Below, piece after piece: positions 25,525-31,996 of a DNA stretch of 33,595 nucleotides (the stretch's first letter is position 1; each line of letters opens with the position of its first letter). Origin of the DNA: Methanobrevibacter thaueri (GTDB lineage Archaea; Methanobacteriota; Methanobacteria; Methanobacteriales; Methanobacteriaceae); assembly GCA_015062925.1 (NCBI GenBank), contig SUTL01000015.1:1-33595 (forward strand). The letters are read 5' to 3'. A program made the position numbers and the translations under genes. The notes beneath the pieces were generated by a model. It worked only from the letters and a program-made list of their open reading frames with translations, searched no databases and had not been told where the DNA came from.

Positions 25525-26463
25525 TTATAACAAATTATTCATTGGGTGATAATCAACAGGTTCGGTTCCTAAAGGTTTTGCAGCTTCAGAGATGAACATG
25601 TCTGTTTGAGCGACTGCTGGGAATGCTATGTCTGCGTTTTCAATAGGTCCGAAGAGTACGAAGTCTCCTGCACACATAACTTGCACAATGTTTGCTCCAA
25701 TATCACAAACTGTGAATGCAGTTTTGTTTCCTGCTTTTTTGTATTCTCTTAACCAGTCCCATGCTGATGGAACGTTGTGAATACCTGATCCTACTGGGTA
25801 TCCCCATTTTGCTTTTTCTGCAAATGAGGTTCTTGCTGCAATACCTGCACCTTGACCGAGCGGAGTTACTGCTGTATCCATCATGAATTTGTCCACACCA
25901 CATTCGGCTGCTACTTCAAGTAATCCTTTTTCGTATGCGCCGTCATCTCCGTTTTCCCACATGTTCATTTTTCCTTCTACTGTAGCATTCATTGGATTGA
26001 ATCCTAGGATGATTGAGGCGGAAATGTCTGTTTCTGCGAGTGCATCTAATTCTGATTTATCTGCAGCCATGTTAATTGAATTGTAGATTGCTCTTTCTGT
26101 CAAACCAGTTTCATCAGCGTACTGTGCACCAGCGACTCTTGCATCACCTGATGTTGAATCTATAAGAAATGGAGCATCACATATTTCTCCTACATATTCT
26201 ATGTATTTTGGTAGTGCTTCTTCGGTTTGTCCAAATACTTGTACAATATATGGATTACCAGTTATGTCGGAGATTGATGCCATGTCGTTGATGAGTTGTT
26301 CAGCTCTTGCTTTATCGAAATCTCCTGTTAATTCATCATTAAGAATATTGTGTCCACCATAGAAAATAGTTCCTGCTAGTACTGTAGGATATTCTCCTGG
26401 CTGTCCACCCATTTTGACTCCTGCGAAGTCAAAAACTTCTTGTTCTTTATCAAATTTAAACAT
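25525..26463 (-). CDS. mtrH: Tetrahydromethanopterin S-methyltransferase, subunit H (MtrH)
   Basis: 312 aa, the usual length. MtrH carries the methyl transfer from methyl-H4MPT to the cobamide on MtrA in the membrane-bound, sodium-pumping Mtr complex of methanogenesis. Family blocks are MFKFDKEQEVFDFAGVKMGGQPGEYPTVLAGTIFY at the start, LIDSTSGDARVAGAQYA, ASIILGFNPMNATVEGKMNMW, VAVTPLG-like TAVTPLGQGAG, and GYPVGSGIHNVPSAWDWLREYKK. The rest of the mtrEDCBAFGH set is not adjacent: upstream is a 271-bp gap with its own promoter and downstream is a TPR gene. It is therefore either a detached mtrH or a second copy. GAGGT lies about 9 nt before the ATG. Confidence 0.93.
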   Translation of the reverse strand: MFKFDKEQEVFDFAGVKMGGQPGEYPTVLAGTIFYGGHNILNDELTGDFDKARAEQLINDMASISDITGNPYIVQVFGQTEEALPKYIEYVGEICDAPFLIDSTSGDARVAGAQYADETGLTERAIYNSINMAADKSELDALAETDISASIILGFNPMNATVEGKMNMWENGDDGAYEKGLLEVAAECGVDKFMMDTAVTPLGQGAGIAARTSFAEKAKWGYPVGSGIHNVPSAWDWLREYKKAGNKTAFTVCDIGANIVQVMCAGDFVLFGPIENADIAFPAVAQTDMFISEAAKPLGTEPVDYHPMNNLL

Positions 26464-29868: not shown

Positions 29869-29887
29869 TTTTTATTTTTCTTTTTTT
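29869..29887 (+). terminator. T-rich terminator of aroC inside the neighbour's coding end
   Basis: Directly after the aroC TGA the plus strand reads three T-runs (5, 5 and 7 residues). This sequence also encodes the Lys-rich C-terminus of the convergent MBL protein, whose stop is only 3 bp away. Confidence 0.55.
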
Positions 29888-30798
29888 ACCATGGATAATT
29901 CATCAAATTCTTTATGTTTGAATGCTAAATTGTATGAATTTTTCCTTTCATTTTTATGTAGTTTCTGATCAACACTGTGAATTATTGATTGTGTGTCTTT
30001 AAGTGAGATTAATCTGAATCGTTTAGGGTTATTGTAGTTTACATTAAATGATAATCCGTCAAATGCTGCAATTGTTTTAACTCCTGTTTTTTTGTAGATT
30101 TTTTTAGCTTCTGATACCGGGTTGCTTGAAATCATTTTTAAACCTAAATGAGTCATTACTGCAACTTGAGGTTTTACTTCATTTATCAGTTTAATGAAAT
30201 CTTTAGAACACATGTGCCCGTTAATTGATCTGTTTCCAGGTCTCAGTACACTGGCAATTAATATATCTGCTCCTTCATGATAATCTGCTAATCCATCGAA
30301 ATATGTTGTATCTGATGTGTAAGATAGTTTAAATCCCCTGTAGTCTATTTGAAATCCAACTCCTGTTGGATCACCATGTTCTGTTCCAGTTCCTTTGATT
30401 TTAAGATTATTTAGTTGACTGTATTTATTAGGTTTTAATATTATTTTTTGAGGTTTTGATTGATGATATTGTGAAATGCATGGACCCCATTTTTCATATC
30501 CTTCAAGAACACTTTCACTACCTACAATAGTCCCTATTCCTTTGGTCATTCCTCTTGTCATTGCTTCTATTAGGATTTCTGCATCATTATAATGATCTGT
30601 ATGTGAATGGGAAACTATAACTCCACTTAGATTACGTGGGTCAAATCCGAATTGGTATGTTCTAACAAGGGCTCCCGGACCTGGGTCTACATGATAATTT
30701 TTACCGCCCAGATTGTCTATTCTGAAACCTCCTGTCATTCTTCGTTGGCTTATGGCGGAAAATCTTCCTCCACCACTACCTAAAAATGTTATTTTCAT
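29872..30798 (-). CDS. MBL-fold metallo-hydrolase
   Basis: 308 aa. The metal-binding HSHTDHYND (His64, His66, Asp68, His69) follows a conserved VDPGPGALVR and ITFLGSGGG start. A later His (MTHLGLK, about 216) and TSDTTYFDGLADYHEGADILI complete the beta-lactamase-fold site, close in style to PhnP/RNase Z-like enzymes without the exosite. The substrate cannot be told. The protein has a Lys-rich tail. GAGGG precedes the ATG at 30798, and the gene starts 13 bp after the connectase-like gene, so the two form an operon. Confidence 0.88.
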   Translation of the reverse strand: MKITFLGSGGGRFSAISQRRMTGGFRIDNLGGKNYHVDPGPGALVRTYQFGFDPRNLSGVIVSHSHTDHYNDAEILIEAMTRGMTKGIGTIVGSESVLEGYEKWGPCISQYHQSKPQKIILKPNKYSQLNNLKIKGTGTEHGDPTGVGFQIDYRGFKLSYTSDTTYFDGLADYHEGADILIASVLRPGNRSINGHMCSKDFIKLINEVKPQVAVMTHLGLKMISSNPVSEAKKIYKKTGVKTIAAFDGLSFNVNYNNPKRFRLISLKDTQSIIHSVDQKLHKNERKNSYNLAFKHKEFDELSMVKKEK

Positions 30799-30811
30799 TA
30801 GAAATTCCCTC

Positions 30812-31732
30812 TTATAATGAACATAATATTATATCGCATTTAAGTGAAGATTTATCTTTTTTAAGGCATAAAACTTCGTTTTCAATTACTACTTTATCTC
30901 CTATTTCTACATTATCGCTTTCGGTGAACATTAAAACATTTTGTCCTGGTGCTGCTAGTTGTTTCCAGTTATCGTCAAGTGCTTGTGTTTTATCGTTTAG
31001 TTGGACGAATAGCATGTTCCCATCTATGGATACGACTTGTCCTATTTCTCCTTTGTCAAGGATTTTATTTGCCATGTCTATTGATAGGTTTTGTTGAACT
31101 AGTTGTTCTGTTAAATCCTGTCTGAATTTAATCAGTACTTTTATGTCATTGTCGATTGTTATGTTTAAATGTTTTTGTGCTTCTGATTCGTTGAATTTTG
31201 GTTGTTGCATTAGCACATCTATTTTATTTCCCACTGTTGGTGTTTTAGAAGCGACTTCTGCTACTATTTCTTCAAATATATCTCCCATGTATCTTAAACT
31301 TAATGATGCTTTCCATTTGCGTTTTATTAATGTTTGTGCCATTTCTTTTGCATATTCATTTCCGAATATTATAAGTCCGCTTTTGCCGGCATTACGGGAT
31401 TTGGTTTCTGATCCTTTTAGAGTTATTATTTGATATCCGTTTGTGGTTCCGTAGATACGCCTTCTTCTTGTTTCGAATGTGCCTTTTGTACTTACTTCTC
31501 CTCTTATTGTATTTCCTACTACTTTTATTTTATTTGCATCGTCTGTTATTTTAATTGAAATACCTAGTTGTGAGGCTTTTGCAAAGAAATCTTCATCAGT
31601 GTTGATATCTCCGTGATATAATTCTTTTTCTAATTCTTCTAAATTTGCTTTATCACCGAAATATCCTATTTTTCTTTTATCACTTGCCATTACACATCCT
31701 TTTTTTCCAACATAAGCAATAATTAAGCTCAT
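30812..31732 (-). CDS. DUF2121 / connectase-like protein (proteasome-related protein ligase)
   Basis: 306 aa. MSLIIAYVGKKGCVMASDKR is the hallmark start of DUF2121, a methanogen family related to proteasome beta subunits. With the initiator Met removed, Ser becomes residue 1 (the N-terminal nucleophile position) and the Asp of ASDKR is residue 17, as in proteasomes. A Lys33 equivalent is not obvious by counting. The C-terminal part (about 200-300) looks like a separate beta-rich domain (VVSIDGNMLFVQLNDKTQALDDNW). The known Methanocaldococcus member, connectase, ligates peptides at a KDPGA motif found in MtrA; this is my recollection of published work, and activity here is inferred. It is the first gene of an operon with the MBL hydrolase. 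Confidence 0.8.
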   Translation of the reverse strand: MSLIIAYVGKKGCVMASDKRKIGYFGDKANLEELEKELYHGDINTDEDFFAKASQLGISIKITDDANKIKVVGNTIRGEVSTKGTFETRRRRIYGTTNGYQIITLKGSETKSRNAGKSGLIIFGNEYAKEMAQTLIKRKWKASLSLRYMGDIFEEIVAEVASKTPTVGNKIDVLMQQPKFNESEAQKHLNITIDNDIKVLIKFRQDLTEQLVQQNLSIDMANKILDKGEIGQVVSIDGNMLFVQLNDKTQALDDNWKQLAAPGQNVLMFTESDNVEIGDKVVIENEVLCLKKDKSSLKCDIILCSL

Positions 31733-31996
31733 AGTATCTCCTAATTAGATATTTTTTTGATTTTTTAAAATATCAATTTTTTATTATTTATATATAATTA
31801 TACTTATCATACATTATAAACTTTAATATTGCATGATTTTTTTGATTGAATAGTTATTAAATCTGATTAATTTGATTTTAAATAGAATTTTTAAACATAT
31901 ACATTTAAATAATAATATAACTATAAATATAAATTATACTAATTGTTAATTATTTATCATTATAGAATGATTAGAAACAAAACAGGAGAAAAAAAT

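Follow-up and report, generated by a model that had tools for sequence, protein, structure and literature searches.

A connectase orthologue of a Methanobrevibacter-like archaeon, its conserved MBL-fold neighbour and its probable target MtrA

The window analysed here, a contiguous stretch of 33,595 nucleotides, encodes the connectase orthologue of a Methanobrevibacter-like archaeon, an ordinary member of its family. Connectases, enzymes of methanogens, cleave a single specific protein and join it again. We consider it likely that the window enzyme targets MtrA, that its Ser1 cuts and rejoins this protein at KD|PGA, and that the MBL-fold hydrolase encoded beside it acts independently. This reading builds on the demonstrated family membership, fold and active-site residues of the protein, on its conserved association with the MBL gene, and on the KDPGA motif found in MtrA.

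The connectase gene (MJ0548-like; 30812..31732, minus strand) starts with ATG and encodes 306 aa, its translation beginning MSLIIAYVGKKGCVMASDKRK. Pfam profile searches with this ORF identified an N-terminal proteasome-beta-like catalytic domain (PF09894, MJ0548_N; 31139..31732, minus strand; 218.7 bits versus a cut-off of 26.8) and a C-terminal beta-barrel domain (PF25274, MJ0548_C; 30821..31129, minus strand, residues 202-304; 105.5 bits versus a cut-off of 27). Both scores are so far above their cut-offs that the connectase assignment, already proposed in a sequence-only reading of this DNA, is not a matter of chance. The AlphaFold2 model built from a 40-sequence alignment (pLDDT 92.3, pTM 0.72) runs through three strands, two helices (E-E-E-H-H-E), the remaining sandwich, a long helix and the C-terminal barrel, that is, the proteasome-beta-like fold that this reading had led one to expect, with two helices (model residues 28-40 and 46-55) inserted behind the third strand. 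The top PDB matches of the model are 6ZVZ and 6ZW0 (TM 0.78-0.84), followed by 8WKD and 8JTU; 20S proteasome beta subunits rank after the connectases, with an E value of about 1e-4. The same four connectase entries were returned by a sequence search.

The best structural match is thus MJ0548 of Methanocaldococcus jannaschii, solved without (6ZVZ) and with (6ZW0) an MtrA-derived peptide. The window protein, known from sequence alone, shares with it the two-domain architecture, Ser1, Asp17 and the two-helix insertion, at 28% identity over the full length and a TM of about 0.84. The connectases of Methanosarcina mazei and Methanococcus maripaludis (8WKD, 8JTU) have the catalytic domain in common with the window protein and target KDPGA in MtrA, but they carry Thr1 instead of Ser1 and were solved as a short form lacking the C-terminal barrel domain. 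A scan of viral contigs with the family alignment found no viral connectase, and no PADLOC model for defence systems matched the connectase or the MBL protein. Second connectase copies were observed at G097:C40:2414-4051 and G098:C1:160688-162357 and in G038, G071 and G079; the copy in G097 is a tandem duplication, and the second connectase-MBL pair of G098 is fragmented, a decaying duplicate of the whole pair.

Once Met1 is removed, Ser becomes residue 1 and Asp residue 17, and the spacing emphasised by the sequence-only reading is borne out. The codons of the predicted nucleophile Ser1 (31727..31729) and of Asp17 (31679..31681; mature numbering throughout), both on the minus strand, specify residues invariant in 40 of 40 sequences, and Ser1, Asp17, Lys18, Arg19 and Lys67 are all unchanged in 40 orthologues with identities down to 42%. 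Lys67 (codon 31529..31531, minus strand) aligns with a Lys of the PDB connectases and, judged by sequence order and invariance, is a candidate equivalent of proteasome Lys33.

Downstream of the connectase lies a conserved gene for an MBL-fold hydrolase of 308 aa (YhfI/ElaC/PhnP-like; 29872..30798, minus strand). The 13-nt spacer between the two genes (30799..30811, minus strand) holds the GAGGG ribosome-binding site of the MBL gene and no terminator-like site, and this gene arrangement indicates that the pair is probably co-transcribed. The AT-rich region upstream of the connectase (31733..31942, minus strand) is the presumed site of an archaeal promoter for both genes; a sigma-70 promoter scan was uninformative, the host being an archaeon. 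The hydrolase contains an HSHTDH metal-binding motif (residues 64-69; 30592..30609, minus strand), and H64-H69 (HxHxDH), His141, Asp163 and His217 are invariant in 42 sequences, which gives the ligand set of RNase Z and YhfI-like enzymes (HxHxDH followed by a further His, Asp and His). The protein falls below the NCBIfam ribonuclease Z equivalog (50 bits versus a cut-off of 252). Its model best matches Bacillus YhfI and ElaC homologues (6KNS, 1ZKP), with a complete metal site but only about 22% identity, and more remotely RNase Z and PhnP, not peptidases.

The pairing is as conserved as the sequence-only reading had anticipated. In the window's family, the MBL gene lies on the same strand and downstream in all 109 connectase-MBL pairs that share a contig, one MBL gene being 10 kb off and another offset by a tandem duplication, and the same arrangement recurs in all 13 genomes sampled from three sister families. 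Such constancy would suit a hydrolase dedicated to the connectase, for example one that processes connectase, MtrA or a cofactor, and the operon partner had been considered a possible pointer to the substrate or to a processing step. This proposal was not supported by the comparison with genus g12, which we take to be probably Methanosphaera: the MBL gene is present in 20/20 of its genomes and the connectase in 0/20, so the hydrolase is not a dedicated connectase partner. In the g12 genomes inspected, the MBL gene is flanked by uvrA-like and aroC-like genes. The fold, that of YhfI/RNase Z/PhnP-type phosphodiesterases, also speaks against a dedicated partner, which we regard as very improbable. 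We read the MBL protein as a phosphodiesterase-type hydrolase with a job of its own that works independently of connectase. The evidence on the substrate comes from MtrA and not from the operon.

The window also contains a solitary mtrH (25525-26463, minus strand), as the earlier reading had stated; it scores 486 bits against TIGR01114 (cut-off 271) and lies 4.3 kb from the connectase, with aroC, hemB and a citG-like gene in between. It stands outside an mtrEDCBAFGH cluster. The mtrH gene was rejected as a connectase partner: only some of the close relatives have it near the connectase, and others carry it on different contigs. Most relatives lack it at this position, between the citG-like gene and the conserved genes beyond; it seems to be a variable extra copy, and its suggested link to the connectase is not supported. 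The window mtrH is the single MtrH found in the assembly (87% complete), which contains no mtrE anywhere; therefore the mtr operon, present in relatives, is missing from this assembly. The sole MtrA found in the window genome is encoded on contig C46 (L002:1462-2028, minus strand); it has 188 aa, no membrane helix and a KDPGA motif within IEKDPGAVEEDPIVMEV, so the motif predicted for MtrA of this organism was found in a soluble MtrA, while the membrane MtrA is missing from the assembly.

The membrane mtr operon was not found in this assembly (G000) and apparently not in some others (G085, G059 and G051) either, and only soluble MtrA was present; these are otherwise near-complete Methanobrevibacter assemblies, and the highly conserved operon perhaps breaks metagenome assembly. 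Directly upstream of the soluble mtrA of the window genome and behind a nitroreductase-like gene, a small protein of about 96 aa (MHVKDLLD...; L002:2078-2368, minus strand) is encoded, and its conservation extends over nine loci within the window's genus. The conserved neighbours of soluble mtrA are only genus-specific, namely the nitroreductase and the small protein in g1 and queE-like and universal-stress-like genes in g9, and no corrinoid-activation gene was recognised among them.

The presence of the motif was compared with that of the connectase over distinct MtrA sequences. In connectase-bearing genera, KDPGA occurs in 48/48 membrane MtrAs. In the connectase-free genus g12 (n = 16; NDPGAYDEDAMIVEF), the membrane MtrAs carry NDPGA (10), KDPGA (1) or other variants (5). 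For control, we used 77 other columns that are at least 97% conserved outside g12: the mean retention in g12 is 84% at these columns versus 6% (1/16) at the motif lysine. The lysine belongs to the five most-lost of 81 columns, and the loss at the other four is just as severe. Wholesale loss of the motif was ruled out, since A, D and G are kept in 75-94% of g12 MtrAs and mainly the lysine is lost. The co-loss is one lineage event and is confounded by the fast evolution of MtrA. Nine further genomes without a connectase match (e.g., G010, G106, G072) are fragmented assemblies; MtrA still has KDPGA in G010 and G106, sampled among them, and all nine are treated as assembly gaps. The only connectase-free g12 genome with KDPGA in MtrA is G122 (L092), whose assembly is 72% complete; a remnant connectase could have been lost from this assembly. 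Among the other genomes compared, we take G123 to be Methanosphaera stadtmanae, G149 M. thermautotrophicus Delta H and G019 M. ruminantium M1.

Soluble MtrA copies are present in several lineages. That of the window genome, about 188 aa without a membrane helix, belongs to the class of cytoplasmic MtrA homologues described in 2016, before connectase was known (Wagner 2016, PMC4915002); the connectase motif and the retention of class-specific tails are added here. The motif of soluble MtrAs is KDPGA in 22/28 and KDSGA in 4/28 cases, and Ser at P1' is tolerated by the M. mazei connectase (PMC11961121). In a nucleotide tree of the domain that precedes the motif, the starred branches force at least nine changes between the membrane and soluble labels, and the scatter of the soluble copies means several origins or exchanges between copies. 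We compared 18 soluble/membrane pairs within genomes, 16 of them outside Methanothermobacter. Upstream of KDPGA, the twins share 91-100% aa identity in 14/16 of the latter pairs, 80-83% in two extra copies and 63-65% in the two Methanothermobacter pairs. The nucleotide identity of the same domain is mostly 81-91%; this combination of 91-100% aa and 81-91% nt identity points to long-standing purifying selection and not to recent copying, and recent gene conversion as the sole cause of the near-identical domains is unlikely where the aa identity reaches 97-100% at 81-91% nt identity.

Past the cleavage site, the twins diverge, with 7-11 of 15 residues identical over the motif and the following 10 residues. 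At P4'-P13' in the window's genus, identity is 98.5% between membrane copies, 80% between soluble copies and 38% between the two kinds; membrane MtrAs read FEEEAMVISV and soluble ones read like LEEDPIVMEV (tails: KDPGAFEEEAMVISV for membrane MtrA, KDPGAVEEDPIVMEV and KDSGALEADPIVMEV for soluble MtrA). Over the 12 residues after P13', only 4.6% identity is left between the kinds. The conserved stretch of membrane MtrA stops at P13', the same limit as that of the published recognition sequence (KDPGA and 10 residues; PMC10154401). The soluble tails of the window's genus have Pro at P8' and Glu at P12', as does the M. mazei tag FDADPLVVEI, and the soluble MtrA of the window genome has Val at P4', one of two changes that jointly improve ligation (PMC11745163). 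The soluble MtrA L169 is 96% identical to the membrane copy before the motif and ends exactly at P13'. Its genome (G139) is, we presume, that of Methanothermus fervidus.

In the mechanism that we favour, Ser1, exposed by Met removal, would attack MtrA between Asp and Pro of KD|PGA. The N-terminal cobamide part would then be held as a covalent intermediate and handed back to a PGA-tail, so that MtrA would undergo reversible cleavage and religation at the junction of its B12 domain with its C-terminal portion. Two kinds of natural tail may take part: the stalk of membrane MtrA and the short C-terminal end of the soluble copy. Three points weigh against this mechanism: the class of the enzyme, the origin of the motif loss in a single lineage with fast-evolving MtrA, and the absence of membrane MtrA from the assembly of the window genome. 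As to the first, the cited ligases of proven activity have Thr1 (M. mazei, PMC10154401; MmCET, PMC11745163) and lack the C-terminal domain, and MJ0548, their Ser1, two-domain relative, was termed an inactive analog (PMC11745163). Ser1 and Asp17 alone are therefore no proof of ligase activity, which for the Ser1, two-domain class, including the window protein, is unproven. Members of this class may instead serve as MtrA-binding scaffolds, chaperones or regulators that do not ligate efficiently, and 6ZW0, in which MJ0548 is bound to an MtrA peptide, is consistent with such a function. We nevertheless judge it unlikely, as the invariance of Ser1, Asp17 and Lys67 over the 40 sequences is what is expected for catalysis. 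It is rather doubtful, if less so, that KDPGA is kept for the structure or function of Mtr itself and that its decay in g12 reflects relaxed selection on Mtr. The alteration of g12 MtrA at many otherwise conserved columns and a passage on M. stadtmanae (PMC7374477), cited in connection with the motif decay of g12, argue for this explanation. However, the linker that bears the motif is disordered in the Mtr cryo-EM structures of M. marburgensis and M. mazei (PMC10998594, PMC12774963), so Mtr structure by itself hardly accounts for the conservation of KDPGA, and most soluble MtrAs keep the motif even though they have no membrane anchor.

A further proposal extends the favoured cutting and rejoining of MtrA and does not contradict it: the B12 domain might be moved between the membrane stalk and a pool of soluble MtrA for loading, repair or release. 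It is a tentative possibility, prompted by the two MtrA kinds sharing one N-terminal part and differing in the C-terminal part with the junction at the scissile bond, by the spread of soluble copies over the MtrA gene tree and by the connectase-compatible motifs of most of them. On the other side, gene conversion may blur the MtrA tree, soluble MtrA could act independently with the extra MtrH, and recognition of such tails is known at the peptide level only. Moreover, some complete connectase-bearing genomes, e.g., G037 and G042 (the latter presumably M. smithii PS), have no soluble MtrA, and exchange with it is therefore not the sole role of connectase. In its more specific form, which we hold to be a little more speculative, connectase would ligate the cobamide domain of soluble MtrA onto the Mtr membrane stalk and back, which would allow loading, repair or tuning of the energy-conserving methyltransferase without new membrane insertion; the repeatedly arising soluble MtrAs, whose match to the membrane form ends at the scissile bond, would then be the genomic trace of this exchange.

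Connectase is already a laboratory protein ligase, and comparative genomics now gives two handles on its role in the cell. One is a genus that has lost both the connectase and the lysine of the target motif, and in which Mtr does not serve energy conservation. The other is a set of natural MtrA pairs that differ only past the connectase cut site. Together, these handles make the in vivo role of connectase testable. If the exchange between soluble and membrane MtrA is true, it would amount to a form of trans-splicing of proteins in the service of the methanogens' main sodium pump.
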